Source: Nitrospira sp. (GTDB taxonomy: Bacteria; Nitrospirota; Nitrospiria; Nitrospirales; Nitrospiraceae). From it: 45,181 nucleotides of DNA. The stretch is from assembly GCA_005116965.1 (NCBI GenBank), contig SWDG01000027.1, positions 19,314 through 64,494 on the forward strand, in the 5' to 3' direction. The notes beneath the pieces were generated by a model. It did not search any database. It saw only the letters and a list, made by a program, of their open reading frames with translations, and had not been told where the DNA came from. The position numbers and the translations under genes are program-made. Position 1 is the first letter of the stretch; each line of letters begins with the position of its first letter. Shown one piece after another: positions 3,279 to 19,683 of the stretch.

Positions 3279-3929
3279 ATGAATTCAATGTCTCGGGGTA
3301 TAGTAATTCTCGTGCTCGCGGTCGTTGGCCTCGTAGGTAGCGCACACGAAGGGCGCTCGGCGACAGGGGGCCATCCTCGGAGTGCGACGGACCTGAAGGC
3401 CGTCCTGCGTGACCTGTGGTCGGGGCATAATTTTTGGCTTCGGAATATCGCGTTGGACAATACGACCAACAATCGCAAAGCGCTGGACTATGCCGAAAAG
3501 TCCGTGACGGCCAATGCCAGACAGATTGCAAAAGCGTTTACGCCGTTCTACGGCGAAGCGGCGTCGGAGCAGCTTTTTACTCTTTTGGTCAAACATTCTG
3601 GGGCGATCAAAGCCTATTCCGAAGCCACCGTTGCCGGAAGCAAGAGCTGGCAGGATGCGGCCAAGGCCGACTATGCTTCGAATACCGAGGAGATCGCCAC
3701 ATTCCTCAGTGAGGTCAATCGCTATCTCCCAAAGGATACGGTGCGAGGTTTGTTCGCTGTGCATGGCGCTCATCAGTTTGAGCTGATCAAGGAGTTGCAA
3801 GAAGAGGATTACGGCCACGAGGCAGAAACGTGGCAGGAGATGGAGCAACATGGCCATGCTATTGCGGATACGCTGACAACAGCATTGGAGAGGCAGTTTC
3901 CAAATAAGTTTTCTGGTCATGTTCAATGA
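3279..3929 (+). CDS. Exported helical protein of unknown function
   Basis: A 216-residue protein with a classical signal peptide (MNSMSRGIVILVLAVVGLVG..., about 28 residues) followed by an all-helical domain. The pattern LWSGHNFWLRN, near-tandem helices, and a later block AVHGAHQFELIKELQEEDY suggest two antiparallel helical halves with several histidines (H55-type WSGHNFW, VKHSG, HGAHQ). I recall similar exported proteins in Firmicutes and proteobacteria, often mis-named acetylglutamate kinase, but have no function for them. The start at 3279 is fixed by GGAGG at 3269-3273; ATG at 3267 overlaps that site. The gene stands alone between cysA and a convergent operon. Periplasmic location is inferred. 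Confidence 0.8.
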   Translation: MNSMSRGIVILVLAVVGLVGSAHEGRSATGGHPRSATDLKAVLRDLWSGHNFWLRNIALDNTTNNRKALDYAEKSVTANARQIAKAFTPFYGEAASEQLFTLLVKHSGAIKAYSEATVAGSKSWQDAAKADYASNTEEIATFLSEVNRYLPKDTVRGLFAVHGAHQFELIKELQEEDYGHEAETWQEMEQHGHAIADTLTTALERQFPNKFSGHVQ

Positions 3930-9554: not shown

Positions 9555-10580
9555 ATGAACGATCGATTCCTCAAAGCCTGCCGCCGTGAACCTGTCGATT
9601 GCACACCCGTGTGGTTTATGCGCCAGGCCGGACGCTACATGTCCGAGTACCGGACGCTGCGTGCAAAACATTCCATCCTCGAGATGTGCAAGACGCCTGA
9701 GCTGGCCGCTCAAGTCACACTTCAGCCAATTGATCGATTTCCCTTGGATGCTGCAATCATTTTCGCCGACATTCTGCTCCCGTTGGAACCGATGGGGCTC
9801 AACCTTGAGTTTGCGGAAGGGGAGGGACCGGTCATCCATAACCCGGTTCGTGACCGAGCAGCAGTGGATGCGCTTCACGTAATCGATGGCGACGAATTGG
9901 ACTATGTGGCTGAAGCCATTCGGCAAACGCGACGGGCTCTGAATGGGCGGGTACCGTTAATTGGATTTGCCGGTGCGCCGTTCACGCTGGCGAGCTATGC
10001 GATTGAGGGCGGAGGGTCCCGCAACTATCTGCACACCAAACAGATGATGTATGGCGATCCCACAGCCTGGCATCGCCTCATGGACAAATTTGTGTCTGTG
10101 CTTACTGGGTATCTCCGGCGACAGATCAAGGCGGGGGCTCAAGCGATTCAGCTCTTCGATAGTTGGGTCGGCTGTCTCTCGTCCGGTGATTATGCCGAAT
10201 ATGTGAAGCCGCACGTCCAGCGGATTTTCGATGGGCTCAAGCGGGAAGGTGTGCCGATGATTCATTTCGGCACCGGCACGACAGCTATTCTTGGGCAGAT
10301 GCGCGAGGCAGGTGGCGATGTTATCGGGATCGACTGGCGAGTTCATCTGGACGAGGCCTGGTCGATGGTTGGGCATGATCGCGCCGTCCAGGGCAACCTG
10401 GACCCGCTCGTCTTGTTTGCGCCGCTCCACGAAATCGAACGCCGCGTCGAAGATATCTTGCGACGAGCCGGAGGACGTCCCGGGCACATTTTCAACCTTG
10501 GTCACGGTATCCTGCCTACGACACCCGTCGACCATGTCGCTGCCACGATCGATATGGTGCACAAGCTGAGCCAACGGTGA
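9555..10580 (+). CDS. hemE: Uroporphyrinogen decarboxylase HemE
   Basis: Cytoplasmic enzyme that removes four carboxyl groups from uroporphyrinogen III to give coproporphyrinogen III, an intermediate of haem synthesis. The 341-residue length is normal. The signature PVWFMRQAGRYMSEYR lies at about 19-34, with catalytic FADILLPLEPMGL near residue 73, GFAGAPFTLASYAIEGG near 138 and FNLGHGILPTTP near the end. ATG 9555 gives the usual N-terminus (MNDRFLKACRREPVDCTPVW) but has no clear ribosome site. It is the first gene of a hemE-hemH-hemG operon, in reaction order except that HemH acts last; coproporphyrinogen oxidase is not in the window. Confidence 0.96.
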   Translation: MNDRFLKACRREPVDCTPVWFMRQAGRYMSEYRTLRAKHSILEMCKTPELAAQVTLQPIDRFPLDAAIIFADILLPLEPMGLNLEFAEGEGPVIHNPVRDRAAVDALHVIDGDELDYVAEAIRQTRRALNGRVPLIGFAGAPFTLASYAIEGGGSRNYLHTKQMMYGDPTAWHRLMDKFVSVLTGYLRRQIKAGAQAIQLFDSWVGCLSSGDYAEYVKPHVQRIFDGLKREGVPMIHFGTGTTAILGQMREAGGDVIGIDWRVHLDEAWSMVGHDRAVQGNLDPLVLFAPLHEIERRVEDILRRAGGRPGHIFNLGHGILPTTPVDHVAATIDMVHKLSQR

Positions 10581-10584
10581 GGAC

Positions 10585-10635
10585 GTGAAGCGTTGTTCGT
10601 CAAGCGCACCTCGCTTCGAACGTTTCACGCTTCAC
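10585..10635. repeat. Imperfect inverted repeat between hemE and hemH
   Basis: GTGAAGCGT at 10585-10593 is the reverse complement of ACGCTTCAC at 10627-10635, and the interior is partly complementary (TTCGTCAAGCG versus CGCTTCGAACG). The whole 51-bp unit fills the hemE-hemH gap. It could be an intergenic repeat of the REP type or an RNA hairpin that tunes hemH translation. Confidence 0.6.
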
Positions 10636-10650
10636 CAACGACGAGGAACG

Positions 10651-11601
10651 ATGCGAGCTACGCCACGTCATAGGGCTGTTCTTTTGATGGCGATGGGTGG
10701 GCCCGATTGTCTGGAGAACGTTGAGCCATTTTTGCTCGATGTTCGTGGTGGACGACCGACGCCCCCTGAGTTGGTCGAAGAGATTCGTGAACGGTATCGA
10801 GCCACCGGTGGGAAATCGCCTGCTGTCGGTATTACCCACGAAGTGGCAAAGAAACTAGAACAACAGCTGAATAGTTCGAGGACTGGCCGATACCGAGTAT
10901 ACGTCGGGTTGCGGCATTGGCATCCGTTCATCAGGGAGACCTATGCCGAGTTGTTGAAAGAATCGCCGGAACAGATTATCGGGGTCTGTATGGCTCCGCA
11001 ACAGTCCTCACTGAGTACCGGAGCCTACCGAAAAAAAGTTGAAGAAGCTCGTGCGGGGCTAGAGGACCATACACCCGTGACCTATATTGGGAGTTGGAAT
11101 CGCCATCCACGCTTGGTTGCCGCAATCGTTGAGAATATCCGGCAAGGGCTTCAGAAGTTTCCTGCCGATGTGCGGGCATCCGTGCCCGTGCTGTTTACTG
11201 CGCATAGTCTGCCGGAACGGATCGTGGCCATGAAGGATCCCTATCCTGACGAAGTGAAGGGGACGGTCGAAGCGGTCACGCAACAGTTGGGGAACCGACC
11301 GACGTACTTTGCCTATCAAAGTCAGGGACGATCGAACGAACCCTGGCTTGGACCCACCGTGGAATCAATGTTGGAAGCCGTTCAGCTGGCGGGACACCGG
11401 TATGTGCTGGTGGCGCCCATCGGGTTCATCTGTGATCATGTGGAAACGCTCTACGATATCGACATCGAACTCAAACAGTTGGCGTTGAGCAGAGGCCTAC
11501 ACCTTGAGCGCATGCCCATGCTGAACGACTCTCTTCCACTCATCGAGACGTTACGTGACGTCTTGGCTGCACACGAATCCTCGCTCTGTATTCAGTCGTG
11601 A
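10651..11601 (+). CDS. hemH: Ferrochelatase HemH
   Basis: Inserts ferrous iron into protoporphyrin IX to make haem b. The 316-residue protein shows VLLMAMGGPDCLENVEPFLLD at the start, the MAPQQSSLSTGAYRKKVEEA block, the active-site histidine in VLFTAHSLPERI and PIGFICDHVETLYDIDIE near residue 270, all usual for ferrochelatase. ATG 10651 has GAGGAA upstream; an upstream in-frame ATG at 10585 would translate through the inverted repeat and add 22 residues that do not fit the family. Its stop codon overlaps the hemG start. Bacterial homologues of this length are membrane-associated but lack a transmembrane anchor. Confidence 0.95.
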   Translation: MRATPRHRAVLLMAMGGPDCLENVEPFLLDVRGGRPTPPELVEEIRERYRATGGKSPAVGITHEVAKKLEQQLNSSRTGRYRVYVGLRHWHPFIRETYAELLKESPEQIIGVCMAPQQSSLSTGAYRKKVEEARAGLEDHTPVTYIGSWNRHPRLVAAIVENIRQGLQKFPADVRASVPVLFTAHSLPERIVAMKDPYPDEVKGTVEAVTQQLGNRPTYFAYQSQGRSNEPWLGPTVESMLEAVQLAGHRYVLVAPIGFICDHVETLYDIDIELKQLALSRGLHLERMPMLNDSLPLIETLRDVLAAHESSLCIQS

Positions 11602-13076
11602 CTCGACCACGTACAGTCGTAATCGTCGGTGGGGGCATTTCCGGCCTGGCCACTGCATTTTCACTCCAAGAGCAGGCGACAAAGGCTGGCCTGACCCTCC
11701 GTTGCACGATCCTTGAGTCCGGATCGACCTGGGGAGGAAAGATCGTCACGCATCGGGTTGGCGAGATTGTGACGGAAGCCGGACCGGACTCCTTCCTGTC
11801 TCAAAAACAGGTTGGCCTGGATCTTTGTACGAAGCTTGGTCTTGCCGATCAGCTCATCAATACCAATCAGACAGGCAAGAAGGCCTGTGTCCTGTACAGA
11901 GGTCGCCTTCATGACCTACCCGAGGGACTGCTGTCATTTGTCCCAAAACAATTGGGGTCTTTTCTTCACAGCGGACTATTGAGCTGCTCAGGGCTGGTTC
12001 GGATGGGACTCGAATTCGCCGTTCCGCCTGGTTCCTCTAGAGAAGATGAGTCGTTGGCTTCGTTTCTTCGCCGTCGGTTCGGTGCTCAGGCATTTGAGCG
12101 GGTTCTGGAGCCACTCATGGCCGGGATCTATGCGGGGGACGCTGAGCATATGAGCCTGAGGGCTGCGTTTCCACGGTTCTTCGAGCTCGAACAGCAGTAC
12201 GGCAGCGTTGTTCGTGGCATGATGGCTGCCAAGAAATCCGCCTCGCTGGTTTCGACTGCCCAAACAGGGCGTACGATGTTTGTCAGTCTCAAGAATGGTC
12301 TCAGCGATTTGGTCACAGCCTTGACGAGTCGATTGACACAGCAGGGCGTGGAGCTTCGAGTAGGGTGCCGGGTCGACGCGCTGAGAGTGAGATCACATGA
12401 GTTAGGCCGATGGATGTACGACCTGATCCTCGATGATGGATCGGCGCTTTCTGCGGACAGTGTGGTTCTTGCCACACCGGCGTATGTGTCAGCGGAACTG
12501 GTGCGTCCATTGACACCGATCGCAGGTGGACTATTGGACATGATTCCCTATGCGTCAACTGCCACCATTGCGATGGCGTTTCCACGGACGCTGACGAGCG
12601 CCATTGAAGGATTCGGATTTATCATCCCGCGAACAGAGCAGCATGATTTGATTGCCGCAACCTGGACGTCGCTGAAGTGGCCGCATCGCGCTCCGGCGAG
12701 TCAGCTGTTGGCGCGATGCTATGTCGGCGGCGTAGGCCGGGAAGACATTCTTCAGGTGGATGACAAGACGCTGGTGGCCAAAGTCAGAGAGGAACTCGCG
12801 GCGGTATGCGGTATCGACGTGGAACCAACTTTCACGGAAGTGAATCGATGGTGGAAGGCGATGCCGCAGTACACGATTGGTCACCTGGACCGATTGGCTC
12901 AGCTCAATGCAGCAGTGAGTCGTTATTCCGGGTTGATTCTCACAGGGGCCGGCTATCGCGGGGTTGGCATTCCAGACTGTATCCGTGAGGGGGCGTTGGC
13001 AGCTGAACGCGTTGTGCAGGATCTTGTAGGTGGCAAGAGTCTATCTGGGCGATCCGCTATTAGTGAGGGTTCATGA
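11598..13076 (+). CDS. hemG: Oxygen-dependent protoporphyrinogen oxidase HemG (HemY type)
   Basis: Oxidises protoporphyrinogen IX to protoporphyrin IX with FAD and molecular oxygen. The 492-residue protein begins with the dinucleotide-binding fold VVIVGGGISGLATAFSL, has the PPOX segment ILESGSTWGGKIVTHRVGEIVTEAGPDSFL, PLMAGIYAGDAEHMSLRAAFPRFFELE in the middle and LTGAGYRGVGIPDCIREG at the FAD-closing C-terminus. GTG 11598 overlaps the hemH stop (GTGA), so the two are translationally coupled. Naming is mixed: hemG and hemY both refer to this flavin enzyme. It supplies the substrate of HemH from the same operon. Confidence 0.94.
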   Translation: MTRPRTVVIVGGGISGLATAFSLQEQATKAGLTLRCTILESGSTWGGKIVTHRVGEIVTEAGPDSFLSQKQVGLDLCTKLGLADQLINTNQTGKKACVLYRGRLHDLPEGLLSFVPKQLGSFLHSGLLSCSGLVRMGLEFAVPPGSSREDESLASFLRRRFGAQAFERVLEPLMAGIYAGDAEHMSLRAAFPRFFELEQQYGSVVRGMMAAKKSASLVSTAQTGRTMFVSLKNGLSDLVTALTSRLTQQGVELRVGCRVDALRVRSHELGRWMYDLILDDGSALSADSVVLATPAYVSAELVRPLTPIAGGLLDMIPYASTATIAMAFPRTLTSAIEGFGFIIPRTEQHDLIAATWTSLKWPHRAPASQLLARCYVGGVGREDILQVDDKTLVAKVREELAAVCGIDVEPTFTEVNRWWKAMPQYTIGHLDRLAQLNAAVSRYSGLILTGAGYRGVGIPDCIREGALAAERVVQDLVGGKSLSGRSAISEGS

Positions 13077-13086
13077 GGAGGGGGAG

Positions 13087-13112
13087 AGAGAGGGAGAAAC
13101 GGCCTCTCTTTG
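13087..13112 (+). terminator. Possible terminator after hemG
   Basis: AGAGAGG at 13087-13093 pairs with CCTCTCT at 13103-13109 across a nine-base loop, followed by TT. The T-tract is short, so this is tentative. It lies between the convergent hemG and flavin reductase genes. Confidence 0.4.
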
Positions 13113-13129
13113 CAGTCGATCGAGGGCCT

Positions 13130-13948
13130 TTATGGAAGGATAATGGCCTGCTCAGGATATCCAAGTCCCTTCAGCGTTGTTTCCAGAGCATCGACCATCG
13201 GAGGGGGGCCGCAGAGGAAGATACAGGTGGCAGCATCGGCAGCAGGAAGGTGTTGCCGCAGAATGTCCGGTGTAATTCGTCCGATGCTGCCAGACCATCC
13301 AGGAGGTGGTTGTTCCAAGACCTGATGGCAATGAAAGTTGAGGTGTTCTTGAACGTTTCGTTCCCACTCCTGTCGGAAGATGATGTCCGCTTCTGTTTTA
13401 TTGGCAACGATCAGAAATAGCTCCGCATCGATTTTCTTGGTCAGAATCCAACGAATGATAGAGATCATCGGCGTAATACCGGTGCCGGCGGCGACGAATC
13501 CCACGCGTGTGGCCATGCCATCCACCCAATGACCGCCGGTGTTCGGCCCGCTCATCAGCACCATCTCGCCAATCTGCTGATCATGGAGGTACTTCGAGAC
13601 TGAACCAGACTCATAGCGCTTGACCGTCAGGTCGAAGAACCCCGTCGTACCGGGCAGCGATGATGGTGTATAGGCCCGCTTCACTTGCTTGCCGTTGATC
13701 GTCGCATGGACGTACAGAAAGTCACCGGGCAACATGTCCAGCGTAGCGTCGGCAGGCAATTCGAAACGAAACGTTTTCGTGTCGTGGGTGTTCGTCTCGA
13801 TGTGGGTCAGCTTGTACGGACTCGGTGTTTTCGATTTGAGGCGGGTGATGGCATTCATGGTGACGCGCATCATATCGAGGTCAGATGGAGCGGTGCAACT
13901 GAACTCTTCCCGATACTTCCGCCTGCGCCTCTTGCATCTGTTGCTCAT
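13130..13948 (-). CDS. FAD/NAD(P)-binding reductase, cytochrome b5 reductase/ferredoxin reductase type
   Basis: A flavoenzyme that moves electrons between NAD(P)H and a protein or small acceptor. RAYTPSS is the FAD-binding RxYTxxS motif, SKYLHDQQIGEMVLMSGP follows, VGFVAAGTGITPMISIIRWIL is the NAD(P)-binding glycine motif, and FLCGPPPMVDALETTLKGLG near the end is the typical C-terminal block. The start is uncertain: the longest frame (272 residues) begins at 13948 with GAGG only four bases upstream, while ATG 13858 (MNAITRLKSK..., 242 residues) looks closer to a normal N-terminus but has no ribosome site. The acceptor is not known; the desaturase at 8221 is one possibility. Convergent with hemG. 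Confidence 0.85.
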   Translation of the reverse strand: MSNRCKRRRRKYREEFSCTAPSDLDMMRVTMNAITRLKSKTPSPYKLTHIETNTHDTKTFRFELPADATLDMLPGDFLYVHATINGKQVKRAYTPSSLPGTTGFFDLTVKRYESGSVSKYLHDQQIGEMVLMSGPNTGGHWVDGMATRVGFVAAGTGITPMISIIRWILTKKIDAELFLIVANKTEADIIFRQEWERNVQEHLNFHCHQVLEQPPPGWSGSIGRITPDILRQHLPAADAATCIFLCGPPPMVDALETTLKGLGYPEQAIILP

Positions 13949-13969
13949 CTCGCCTCATACTTTCAATTC

Positions 13970-14225
13970 ATGACATCTCCTCACTCGGGTCACTCAACAC
14001 CCCTCCAGGACACCGACGGCCAGATACTCGGACATATGGCGGTGATCGACCGTCGTCCGATTCCAGAAGAACCACGAGTTCATGCGACCTTTCAGATCTT
14101 CGCCGCGCGTGCAGAAGCTGAGAAGTGGAAAGTTTCGGGTGAACATGGTGCGGCGAAGCTGCTGGGCATCAATGCTTCCATCCTTTCCTCCCGTATGAGA
14201 GCGCTCAAGATTCAAAAACCTGCGG
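13970..14225 (+). pseudogene. Collapsed remnant of a sigma-54-dependent regulator (sensor end fused to Fis-type HTH)
   Basis: One open frame (upstream part from 13685, open to 14359) contains ILGHMAVIDRRPIPEEP and HATFQIFAARAEAE, which is how the GAF/PAS sensor domain of FhlA-like activators ends, joined directly to KWKVSGEHGAAKLLGINASI and LSSRMRALKIQKP, which is how their Fis-type DNA-binding domain ends. The central AAA+ sigma-54-interaction domain (normally over 200 residues) is missing. No ribosome site precedes ATG 13970, and codons after about 14225 look like untranslated leader of the next gene. I infer an in-frame deletion and call it a pseudogene; a short DNA-binding protein is possible but less likely. 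Confidence 0.6.
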
Positions 14226-14349
14226 GGCACTCACCTCGGTGGAGACAGTCCGTTTCAGACAACGATGCAGGCGATTGTGGTGACGGCACGGGCAAAAGGA
14301 AGATAAGGTGGGTAAATTTGAACGCTCGAAAGCAGATAAAGGAGGACTT

Positions 14350-15420
14350 ATGTACCTAGGAATATCTCGTCAACAGATAGCTTGCGCCGTGCTGACACTT
14401 TTACTTGCTCCTCCAGCAGGGTATGCGATGTCAGGCATGGAGATGCCCCATGGCGGACATGGAAAATCAACGTCTTCGCTATCGAAGAGTCTTGGCGAAC
14501 CCCTCAATACCTCAGAATCCGAAATCGAGATTACATATAGTGCTGACGGAAATACTGCCATCTTCGTCTCCGGTCGCCAAGGGAGCGTGCCGTCACCCGG
14601 TGTTCCCTACAATTTAGACATCTGGATAGCTCATAAGGTAAATGGCACATGGCAAAGCCCGATTCATCTGGGACCAGGCATCGATCCCACGGTGGGGCCA
14701 AACATCAATACATCGGCGTGGGAGCTGGAACCGAGCTTCTCGGATGATGGCAATGTCATTTATTTTACGCGATACGAGCAGCCGGGCAACCTCTCTACCG
14801 GTGACTTGTATGTGACGCAGAAAATCAACGGGGTCTGGCAACCGGCCAAGAATTGGAACGATGTCCCTGAACTGCCGCACCTCAATACGCCGACCGGCGA
14901 GGAACACTGCCCGATCATTGCGTCCGACAGTCTGATCTATTTCAACTACCAGCAGCCCGGAGTGACACAAGACAGCGACGTCTGGAAAGTTGAAAAGAAA
15001 GACGGTGTGTGGCAGAAGCCTGAGAGTCTAGGGCCACGCCTCAATTCGCCCTATCGGGACCATATGCACTGGACCGGCCTATCGAAGGACGGGAAGAGTC
15101 TCATTATCACCAGTACGCGCCCGGACATGGGCTCTCGGGGCGGACATGATATGTGGATTTCCTACCAGAATCCAAAGGGCGAATGGCAAGAACCATTGAA
15201 CCTCGGTGATACGATCAATACGGCCGGCGAAGATATGTGTTGGATCTTTACCCCGGACGGTAAGACGTTCACGGGTAGTTGGGGCCCTCGCGATTCCTAC
15301 AACCACGACTTGATGTGGGTCAAGAAAGATGATGTTCCGCTGTTGAAAAGCTTTGAGCCGATCGGGCCACCCCCGAACCTGCTCGCTACCAGCAAAAAGA
15401 CATTCAACGATATAAAATAA
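14350..15420 (+). CDS. Exported PD40/TolB-like beta-propeller protein
   Basis: A 356-residue secreted protein. The signal peptide (MYLGISRQQIACAVLTLLLAPPAGYA) leads to a mature N-terminus MSGMEMPHGGHGKS, rich in Met and His as in copper-handling proteins. Repeats of the PD40 type follow: EITYSADGNTAIFVSGRQG, EPSFSDDGNVIYFTRYEQ, WTGLSKDGKSLIITSTRPD and CWIFTPDGKTFTGSWG, each with a D-G turn. DIWIAHKVNGTWQSPIHLG and later QKINGVWQPAKN are the inter-blade strands. ATG 14350 has AAAGGAGG six bases upstream. Propellers of this type bind proteins or ligands; a target cannot be named. Metal binding by the N-terminus is inference. Confidence 0.82.
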   Translation: MYLGISRQQIACAVLTLLLAPPAGYAMSGMEMPHGGHGKSTSSLSKSLGEPLNTSESEIEITYSADGNTAIFVSGRQGSVPSPGVPYNLDIWIAHKVNGTWQSPIHLGPGIDPTVGPNINTSAWELEPSFSDDGNVIYFTRYEQPGNLSTGDLYVTQKINGVWQPAKNWNDVPELPHLNTPTGEEHCPIIASDSLIYFNYQQPGVTQDSDVWKVEKKDGVWQKPESLGPRLNSPYRDHMHWTGLSKDGKSLIITSTRPDMGSRGGHDMWISYQNPKGEWQEPLNLGDTINTAGEDMCWIFTPDGKTFTGSWGPRDSYNHDLMWVKKDDVPLLKSFEPIGPPPNLLATSKKTFNDIK

Positions 15421-15660
15421 TCGGCGGATACTGGAAGGCACCCATAGGAGGACTGGTCAACGGGTGCGCATTAGTGGATTCGAAGAGTAGCGGATTGGTG
15501 ATGATGGCTTGATCGCCGAATCACTCGGCAGCTTCGATGCTGCTGATCTTGAACGTCAAATCGAGCATGGAGTAGATCGCAAGTGACCCACTGGGGTTGG
15601 CGATCTGTCTTTCGGCGAGGTGAATGATGTGGTCTACGACCATGGGGTGGCTAGATTGCT

Positions 15661-16677
15661 TCAGTTCTGCAGCTTGAAGTGTTTTGTCTGTTCTGGTGCT
15701 TTCGGATTGGGATTCGTATGAGGGTGCACTGCCAGTTTTGCGAGAACCAGCTGAGCTGCTGTAATCCTGTGTTCGACAGCCCGGGTCAACCACCGGCGAG
15801 CCTCATCCGTACTTCTTGTGACTCCGCGCCCGTAGGCGTACATCACCCCGAGGACATACATTGCTTGTCCATTACCAGTCTCAGCCAGGCGGTGGAGACC
15901 GGGAGAAGCTTTCTTGTACCAACTGACTGACTCTGGGGTCTGTCGCCCGCCATGCTGTGCATAATAGCGTCCGAGGCGATACTGGGCAAAGGCATCGCCC
16001 TGTTCCGCCAGGCGAGCGTCGATGTCTAGATCTTGAGCAGGTTTTGAGGTCGACAGGCTTGATGTCGTCTGCTCATTACCTGAAGGTGCAATAATGTTGT
16101 GGTCAATGGGATGGTTGACTAGCTCGGAGGACTTGGGCTTCGAGGCTTGGCTGTGATTGTGTTGTGTCGTGAGCCGATCGGCCACGCGAACGTCGTTCTC
16201 CTGATTTTGAGCAGGTTTTTCGGCCGGCATGCTTGCCGCTGTTTTTTCGTTTTTTGGAGGTACCACGCTGTGGTCAGTCGGGCGGGCAGCCGGCTCGGGA
16301 GACTTAGGCTGTGAGTCTTGGTTGTGATTGCTGTGGGTCGTGTGCTGGTCTGGATCAAGGAGAGGTGGAGGATTCTGGGATTCGCCCAGGCCTTCAGCCT
16401 GTGAGACTGGCGTAAGGCTGAAGGCGTTCTGAGTTGGTAGCAGTTCCGTGACTGATTGCGGTTGGCCACAGTTTTTGGAGGAGCTGTTCGATCCTTCCTG
16501 TCCGACGCCTGGTTGGCAGTTCGCTTGATCGTCGGAGGCGGGTGGCCATACGCCTAGTGTCGACGCACCCCAGACGAGCGCGATGATGAACAACGCACAA
16601 AGGAGCAGTCGGCGCCTTAGGATCGTTCGATCGCTGGGTGGCACTAGGACGAGTCCAGGATAGCCTTTCTTGGCCAT
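15661..16677 (-). CDS. Membrane-anchored Sel1-repeat protein with a duplicated disordered linker
   Basis: A 338-residue protein. An N-terminal cytoplasmic stretch with RRR is followed by one membrane helix (LLLCALFIIALVWGAST, about 24-40). A long polar linker (about 45-225) is rich in P, Q, S, H and N and contains two tandem copies of a 56-residue unit. Two or three Sel1-type TPR repeats come last (AQYRLGRYYAQHG, then AMYVLGVMYAYGRGVTRSTDEARRWLTRA). Such proteins scaffold other proteins, here presumably outside the cytoplasm. The start at 16677 has GGAGAAGG just upstream. The target is unknown. Flanked by non-coding regions on both sides. Confidence 0.78.
   Translation of the reverse strand: MAKKGYPGLVLVPPSDRTILRRRLLLCALFIIALVWGASTLGVWPPASDDQANCQPGVGQEGSNSSSKNCGQPQSVTELLPTQNAFSLTPVSQAEGLGESQNPPPLLDPDQHTTHSNHNQDSQPKSPEPAARPTDHSVVPPKNEKTAASMPAEKPAQNQENDVRVADRLTTQHNHSQASKPKSSELVNHPIDHNIIAPSGNEQTTSSLSTSKPAQDLDIDARLAEQGDAFAQYRLGRYYAQHGGRQTPESVSWYKKASPGLHRLAETGNGQAMYVLGVMYAYGRGVTRSTDEARRWLTRAVEHRITAAQLVLAKLAVHPHTNPNPKAPEQTKHFKLQN
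16000..16341 (-). repeat. Internal tandem duplication in the Sel1 protein gene
   Basis: Codons for residues about 113-168 and 170-226 encode two related units. Both begin TT-x-x-NH, continue with a PKSxE block, then a DHxxx(P) block, a stretch ending KPAQ, and an acidic end (VRVADR versus IDARLAEQ). The copies have diverged by about half in protein sequence, so the duplication is not recent. Confidence 0.7.
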
Positions 16678-16852
16678 ACCTTCTCCCGAGGGAATCCTTG
16701 GTCGGAGTATATCAGTGTGTCAGAACGCTGTCTCGTGCTCTGGTCTCCATCACTGCCGTCGTAGTGGGGGAGCCGCAAAGACCTGGCTGCTGCGTCAAAC
16801 GCCGCAGCGCTGTACCTTGTATCTAGTACAGTGCTCCTCTATAGATAGCCTC

Positions 16853-16882
16853 TTGTCCTCCCTAACTTCAAGCTCTTATAGT
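16853..16882 (+). promoter_or_regulatory. Candidate promoter for the gene at 16929
   Basis: TTGTCC at 16853-16858 and TATAGT at 16877-16882 are 18 bases apart. Transcription would start near 16889, leaving a 40-base leader with GAGG upstream of the ATG. Confidence 0.45.
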
Positions 16883-16928
16883 ACGGGCGATAGAGGGGGT
16901 CATTGTAACCGAGGAAAGCGAGCGAATC

Positions 16929-17345
16929 ATGCCGTCAACGGACAACCCCTTTGCCATCGTAGAAATCAACGGTCCGTTTCGTGAGCCGCGAGAGCAAGTC
17001 TTTTCCTACGACTATTCGATTCAACGATCCACCTGGGCGACGCCACATGGCGTGCGCGTGAAGGTCTCAATACCGGATGAACTGGAGGTATTGAAGCGTC
17101 GTCTCGTCGGAATGGTTGTCGGCTCGCCCGGCCAGCAATTGATGATGAGCAACATCCTCTCCAAAACGATTGCGGGCTGGAAGATGCAGGTGGCTGACGG
17201 GGAGGGCATGTTGACGGAACGACGTGACATGTTGCTGGCGCCTTTTATCGGGCCGCTGGCCCATCTATTCCCGAAGGTAGAGGCGTTGTTTGCAGCGGAT
17301 CAATCGGCGATCCGGGAAGAGGTGAGGAGACGCGTGGGCATCTAA
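16929..17345 (+). CDS. Hypothetical protein, 138 residues
   Basis: MPSTDNPFAIVEINGPFREPREQVFSYDY... is a mainly mixed alpha/beta protein with a hydrophobic central part (LVGMVVGSPGQQLMMSNILSK) and a helical C-terminus (KVEALFAADQSAIREEVRRRVGI). There is no signal peptide or obvious motif. GAGGAAAG precedes ATG 16929 and a good promoter lies upstream, so expression is likely. Immediately after its TAA (17343-17345) a 123-bp inverted-repeat element begins. I do not recognise the family. Confidence 0.68.
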   Translation: MPSTDNPFAIVEINGPFREPREQVFSYDYSIQRSTWATPHGVRVKVSIPDELEVLKRRLVGMVVGSPGQQLMMSNILSKTIAGWKMQVADGEGMLTERRDMLLAPFIGPLAHLFPKVEALFAADQSAIREEVRRRVGI

Positions 17346-17468
17346 CAGGCTGTTGAAAAAGTCCTCCCGCTTCGTTCTCACATCGCTCAGAGGCTCAACG
17401 TACAGCCCAAAGTACGATTCGCCTCTTCACTCGTTGCGGCCTTGCTGGAAGCCTTTTTGAACAGCCTG
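17346..17468. mobile_element. 123-bp inverted-repeat element (MITE/REP-like)
   Basis: The ends CAGGCTGTTGAAAAAG (17346-17361) and CTTTTTGAACAGCCTG (17453-17468) are complementary over 16 bases with one mismatch. The interior contains another possible stem, AGAGGC...GCCTCT at about 17389-17426. It encodes nothing and starts the base after a stop codon, between two convergent genes. I recall very similar intergenic elements in Nitrospira genomes, but could not check this. It may also act as a bidirectional terminator. Confidence 0.7.
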
Positions 17469-17500
17469 CGGGCCACACTTAAAAGGTGCCGGTCGATCCG

Positions 17501-19224: not shown

Positions 19225-19683
19225 ATGGGGCTGCTCAATAGGCTGTTTGGGTTTCGCTGGAGCCTGTATGTCGTTCACAACGGCGGGTTGGCTTTCGCCA
19301 TGCACGAGCATTCCGTTATGTCCACGGTAGGCTACGTGATGTCTTACTTCGCCGCCGGCAAGGAGCCTGTCGCACCATGGGAGCTTTACCTGAATTTCAA
19401 TCACAAACACCAGACCATTAAGCTCACGCCCGCGCACTTTACCGTGGATGGAGAGAACGTTACGCCACTGCTCATTCAACAAATCGAAGCTATTGATCCG
19501 GGCTGGAAGATAAGAGGTGGAGAGCCGGTCTTTGAAGAAGCAGCAACAAAGAAGAAGCTAAAGATTAGCGACGCGCCGAGAAGTTGGTCTACTGCGGACC
19601 TCCAGGCAATGATGGACAACCTCGACAAGCCGAGGGAACTCACGTTCTTCTCGGTGATGGACATGGTCTTTGGAAAACGCTAA
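19225..19683 (+). CDS. Hypothetical protein on a putative integron-type cassette (cassette 1)
   Basis: A 152-residue protein, MGLLNRLFGFRWSLYVVHNG..., mixed alpha/beta, ending LTFFSVMDMVFGKR. GGAGGAGG (19212-19219) fixes the start. It has no recognised domain, though I recall similar short proteins from gene cassettes. GTTAGCG lies 27 bases before the start and the stop codon TAA lies inside CGCTAAC, the opening of an attC-like region. This tight packing of one gene between recombination-type sites is the cassette pattern. No promoter is visible close upstream. The function is unknown. Confidence 0.7.
   Translation: MGLLNRLFGFRWSLYVVHNGGLAFAMHEHSVMSTVGYVMSYFAAGKEPVAPWELYLNFNHKHQTIKLTPAHFTVDGENVTPLLIQQIEAIDPGWKIRGGEPVFEEAATKKKLKISDAPRSWSTADLQAMMDNLDKPRELTFFSVMDMVFGKR

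Follow-up and report, generated by a model that had tools for sequence, protein, structure and literature searches.

The window, a 45,181-nucleotide stretch (positions 19,314 to 64,494) of contig SWDG01000027.1 from Nitrospira sp. (GCA_005116965.1), carries an open reading frame of 129 aa at positions 13970-14359 on the plus strand. Its translation reads as quoted in the initial annotation, which had described a sensor end fused in frame to a Fis-type helix-turn-helix (HTH) end, and this description held: in the frame that starts at ATG 13970, the end of a GAF sensor domain is fused in frame to the last part of a Fis-type HTH, and PAS, AAA+ and lid are missing. The features of the locus, with scars marking the sites of DNA lost relative to related loci, are as follows.

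13130..13873, minus strand: FAD/NAD(P)-binding oxidoreductase (FNR-like), intact (Pfam FAD_binding_6, NAD_binding_1); upstream divergent synteny anchor
13874..13969, no strand: intergenic by coordinates, from the oxidoreductase to the regulator start; no sigma-70-like promoter in our scan
13970..14011, plus strand: original start and first 14 codons of the regulator; the ATG aligns with L066:1485 and L036:4638
14000..14011, plus strand: scar 1, 348 bp lost; one copy of a 12-bp direct repeat coding PLQ(D/N) is left, and the blastn ends overlap
14012..14112, plus strand: remnant of the GAF C-terminal end (blastn, tblastn), L036 residues ~131-164 of GAF 34-168
14113..14122, plus strand: scar 2, 1338 bp (446 codons) lost, with PAS, AAA+, lid and the first part of HTH_8
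14123..14225, plus strand: Fis-type HTH remnant, L036 residues ~614-648, where HTH_8 is 598-641
14221..14231, plus strand: scar 3, 2274 bp lost versus L066, with the regulator stop, SnoaL, MBL and most of the methyltransferase
14232..14306, plus strand: 3' tail of the lost methyltransferase, residues 250-273 and TAA (tblastn, 96% identity), in a frame that differs from that of the relic
14350..15420, plus strand: TolB-like gene (PD40), intact (Pfam PD40 E 6e-32); in L066 it closes the neighbouring gene group
15431..15565, plus strand: SnoaL remnant, residues 86-130, interrupted by an internal stop; L066 and G015 carry it too, downstream of TolB

The frame maps onto residues 1-14, ~127-164 and ~614-649 of the intact orthologue L036. 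Its left piece matched intact regulators at 69-93% identity (tblastn) in 32 of 33 Nitrospira loci (L035-L067), with no match in L065, while the residues of the right piece (KWKVSGEHGAAKLLGINAS...) equal those of the C-terminus of intact orthologues at nearly all positions. At the DNA level, the pieces are 69-90% identical to L036, L039, L045, L048 and L066, and synteny together with DNA identity establishes common descent with the intact sigma-54 activator at the same locus. The origin of the two halves as sensor end and HTH end was assigned correctly in the initial annotation. About 38 of 135 GAF residues are left (limits from Pfam on L036), and the HTH is missing ~15 residues at its start as well as its stop codon, so the relic can count neither as a working sensor end nor as a full HTH. 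In the Pfam search, the GAF piece alone matched no family, HTH_8 remained below the cut-off (profile positions 24-41 of 42, E 0.19, 11.9 bits against a cut-off of 22), and the AAA+ Sigma54_activat domain gave no match. The complete C-terminal HTH_8 of a sigma-54 activator is thus missing by Pfam. Also missing is what a Fis- or RegA-like protein would be expected to have, a complete HTH_8 together with a dimerisation or sensor domain that is intact. An AlphaFold model of the 129-aa frame, in which a 20-residue chimeric helix precedes the HTH helices, is uninformative because it was built from a single sequence and has low confidence (mean pLDDT 46.8). A terminator scan around the relic found none.

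The initial annotation had proposed a search for an intact orthologue in relatives, and one was found at the same locus in related Nitrospira genomes, adjoining the same FAD/NAD oxidoreductase gene. The intact frames are about 617-688 aa long and have the GAF-PAS-AAA+-HTH_8 architecture with the GAFTGA motif; a frame of at least 400 aa with this motif is present in 26 of the 28 loci L007-L034, counting L033 (446 aa), which is split by a frameshift. Pfam places GAF at residues 34-168 (E 2.4e-10), PAS at 188-296, Sigma54_activat at 329-495 (E 2.9e-75), the lid at 501-573 and HTH_8 at 598-641 (E 4.2e-6) of L036. The gene order in L066 (Nitrospira RSF5) is PPO, oxidoreductase (reverse), regulator, SnoaL, MBL, methyltransferase and TolB-like. 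Synteny was counted over the 33 Nitrospira loci L035-L067, six of 39 loci being left out as belonging to other groups. The oxidoreductase adjoins the regulator in nine of them (L035, L036, L037, L039, L045, L048, L054, L059 and L066), 12 have MBL and methyltransferase after the regulator (13 of 34 with L087), and several others presumably have a DoxX-like gene there instead. The SnoaL, MBL, methyltransferase and TolB-like genes are also common to some related loci; the absence of a gene is uninformative at many loci because these are cut short. The regulator of RSF5 (L066:1863-1984, 3324-3421) shares only 74-82% DNA identity with the relic, against 90-94% in the flanks, a gap suggesting that the regulator was replaced by recombination in one lineage. 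The source genome (3.73 Mb, 27 contigs) was found to carry no further copy of this regulator; Sigma54_activat gave 22 matches in it (19 near-full-length and three partial).

Compared with L066 by blastn, the locus falls into four matching islands at 12484-13978, 14000-14121, 14123-14220 and 14231-15597 (L066 1-1493, 1863-1984, 3324-3421 and 5706-7069), and the island ends give losses of 348, 1338 and 2274 bp. Island ends and junctions were compared with six loci, and the first two losses are equal in length against L066, L036 and L039. The AAA+ domain is indeed gone, as the initial annotation had stated, with 1338 bp (446 codons) missing in frame relative to these three intact orthologues. The presence of intact orthologues at the same locus in relatives identifies the frame as a collapsed sigma-54 regulator from which AAA+ was removed in frame. 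The collapse proposed from the sequence is confirmed, but it was not a single event, as three deletions are involved; the 348-bp N-terminal in-frame deletion, the lost stop codon and the lost downstream genes had been overlooked. By pattern search, 11 of 33 loci (L035, L036, L037, L039, L040, L043, L046, L048, L051, L053 and L066) carry the PLQ(D/N) repeat twice, at a spacing of exactly 348 bp. As the two 12-bp repeats encode PLQ(D/N) in a common frame, the 348-bp deletion was necessarily in frame. No clear repeat was found at the ends of scar 2, so the frame was kept there either by a 1-in-3 chance or by early selection. The third deletion took the stop codon, so that the relic frame continues through the final 24 methyltransferase codons, but not in their register. 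A transposon-driven collapse was considered and rejected: no transposase was noticed among the frames listed for 11000-17500, and the junctions fit plain deletions.

According to the initial annotation, conservation of exactly this short form among relatives would refute a collapse. The 267-bp stretch 13970-14236 is contiguous in two of 175 family genomes, the source genome and its sister G015; 45 others match in one or in separate pieces (among the matches listed) and 128 have no match. Within the genus, the joined form is found in 2 of 79 genomes. G015 has the same three junctions, with 94.7% identity over 3279 bp and 96% over 13970-14236. Its copy is frame-shifted by a 1-bp deletion in codon 12 and the frame ends soon after. 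This deletion could be a sequencing error, and an ATG at 14036, which lies downstream of the frameshift, could by its position give a product of ~107 aa in both genomes.

The relic and its G015 counterpart differ by three synonymous and four non-synonymous changes in 66 codons, a dN/dS of 0.43 which, at seven changes, is indistinguishable from 1 (p 0.23) and from 0.14 (p 0.13), the median of 153 pairs of intact regulators (highest 0.53). In this 66-codon comparison, 18 of 26 full-length sequences were used, and eight were dropped because the motif pattern missed the HTH start. All four non-synonymous differences involve residues absent at that position from all 18 intact sequences, and two fall at invariant columns (37 of 66 columns are invariant). 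Over 14024-14359, a range that includes the methyltransferase tail and the TolB start, 8.5 non-synonymous and 7.5 synonymous changes were counted, with non-synonymous changes below the neutral expectation (p 0.019, uncorrected and with no transition bias in the model). The relic diverges from G015 at 12 of 342 positions (0.035), which is below the dS of neighbouring genes (0.10-0.31) and similar to two short intergenic stretches beside it (0.039 and 0.042); two other noncoding stretches gave 0.096 and 0.067. Low local divergence is weak evidence here, as divergence from G015 ranges over 0-25% per 200 bp along the aligned 9 kb. Peaks lie at 10472-10671 (~25%) and 16072-16271 (~23%), and values elsewhere are mostly 3-10%.

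Taken together, we consider the frame a decaying pseudogene relic within a larger operon scar rather than a new protein, with a probability of roughly 0.88. Relatives carry an intact orthologue while the lesions of the relic remove essential domains, and the broken state of the neighbouring SnoaL remnant also supports the pseudogene reading. Further support comes from the 348-bp repeat spacing, the two-genome distribution of the joined form, the codon-12 deletion in G015, the read-through after the lost stop, the partial HTH_8 match with no GAF match, the residues not seen in intact sequences and the lack of an intact copy elsewhere in the genome. Without the ATPase that remodels sigma-54 RNA polymerase, and with GAF and HTH both incomplete, the frame cannot do the job of its parent, and judging from its sequence it probably yields no functional protein. 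Counting against the relic reading are the frame staying open across two junctions, the ATG at 14036, the deficit over 14024-14359, the low divergence and the chance that the 1-bp deletion in G015 is a sequencing error. In the course of events that we envisage, the common ancestor of the source genome and G015 would have come from a lineage with a GAF-PAS-AAA+-HTH_8 activator beside the SnoaL/MBL/methyltransferase/TolB-like group, and at least three deletions, in an order that we can only infer, would have taken 348, 1338 and 2274 bp. The first may have arisen by slippage or recombination between the 12-bp coding repeats, the second would owe its preserved frame to chance (1 in 3) or to early selection, and the third would have removed the stop codon along with the greater part of three genes downstream. 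Bacterial pseudogenes can arise by deletion between short direct repeats.

Alternatively, the frame could encode a functional chimera of GAF end and HTH that lacks AAA+ and acts at the former enhancer site, repressing or competing with sigma-54 activators; Fis and REC-HTH regulators such as RegA/PrrA are the model for such a mode of action. The frame open over two junctions, the junctions common to two genomes, the little-diverged stretch with its non-synonymous deficit and the chimeric helix of the AlphaFold model would all agree with this. We nevertheless regard it as quite improbable, given the frameshift near the start in G015, the truncated N-terminal side of the HTH, the lost stop codon, the changes at invariant positions, the low confidence of the model and a scan of 13850-14400 that found no sigma-70-like promoter. 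A shade less probable still is that the stretch has been kept as DNA only, for example because it serves the TolB-like gene starting at 14350 as leader or promoter, with the open frame incidental. The gene immediately downstream of the relic does evolve under purifying selection (TolB-like, dN/dS 0.07 against G015), and the relic's divergence is below neighbouring dS; against this, divergence varies widely along the locus, the 37 bp directly before TolB are the most diverged noncoding piece measured (0.108), and the same scan offers no promoter.

A second AAA+-less regulator of another type was observed about 108 kb from the relic, as a 204-aa frame (L096:2952-3593, G000:C12) in which an N-terminal GAF part is fused in frame to a complete HTH_8. 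Of the 878-aa frame of G013, residues 9-168 and 799-878 survive in it, while elsewhere this regulator is reduced to residues 818-878 in G015 and 700-878 in G016. As the second regulator has also collapsed and is broken differently in relatives, loss of GAF-type activators has been repeated in the clade by different lesions. That in-frame excision of AAA+, at least twice in this genome, turned sigma-54 activators into sensor-HTH proteins acting as DNA-binding competitors or repressors is, in our view, very improbable; if true, it would be a live example of Fis-like proteins arising from NtrC-like ones and a natural experiment on their origin. Two further frames carry HTH parts. At L087:9174-9740 (reverse strand), a 189-aa frame has a transposase-like piece, which we take to be of the IS630 type, running in frame into an HTH tail of the regulator family, and another HTH tail lies at L087:3665-3805. 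In the same genome as the relic, L108:500-1093 (G000:C27) encodes a naturally AAA+-less 197-aa protein with HTH_8, whose N-terminus may be a degenerate receiver domain. An assembly or binning error can practically be dismissed, as the genome is a 27-contig draft but the recurrence of the junctions in G015 shows that they are not an artefact of one assembly.

In annotation, the appropriate label for the frame is remnant rather than small regulator. The case has little importance beyond annotation, loss of unneeded genes being an ordinary fate, but it is a clean one in which the loss of a regulator and operon can be resolved into separate deletions, and it illustrates how a deletion can leave an open frame simply because the repeats at its two ends encode an identical motif in one frame. 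The locus was not met in the literature as judged by titles and the beginnings of abstracts, a scope that does not imply absence from print.

Among known systems, the relic resembles Fis and RegA/PrrA in having a Fis-type HTH without AAA+. In those proteins the HTH is complete and the partner domain or dimer intact, whereas both pieces of the relic are incomplete. With the GAF-PAS-AAA+-HTH_8 enhancer-binding proteins of Nitrospira it shares orthology of both pieces at the same locus, but it lacks PAS, AAA+, lid, most of GAF and part of the HTH. Although two of its deletions happen to keep the frame, unlike pseudogenes formed by repeat deletion, it is like them in that 12-bp repeats end the 348-bp loss, several deletions have occurred and neighbouring genes have been lost.
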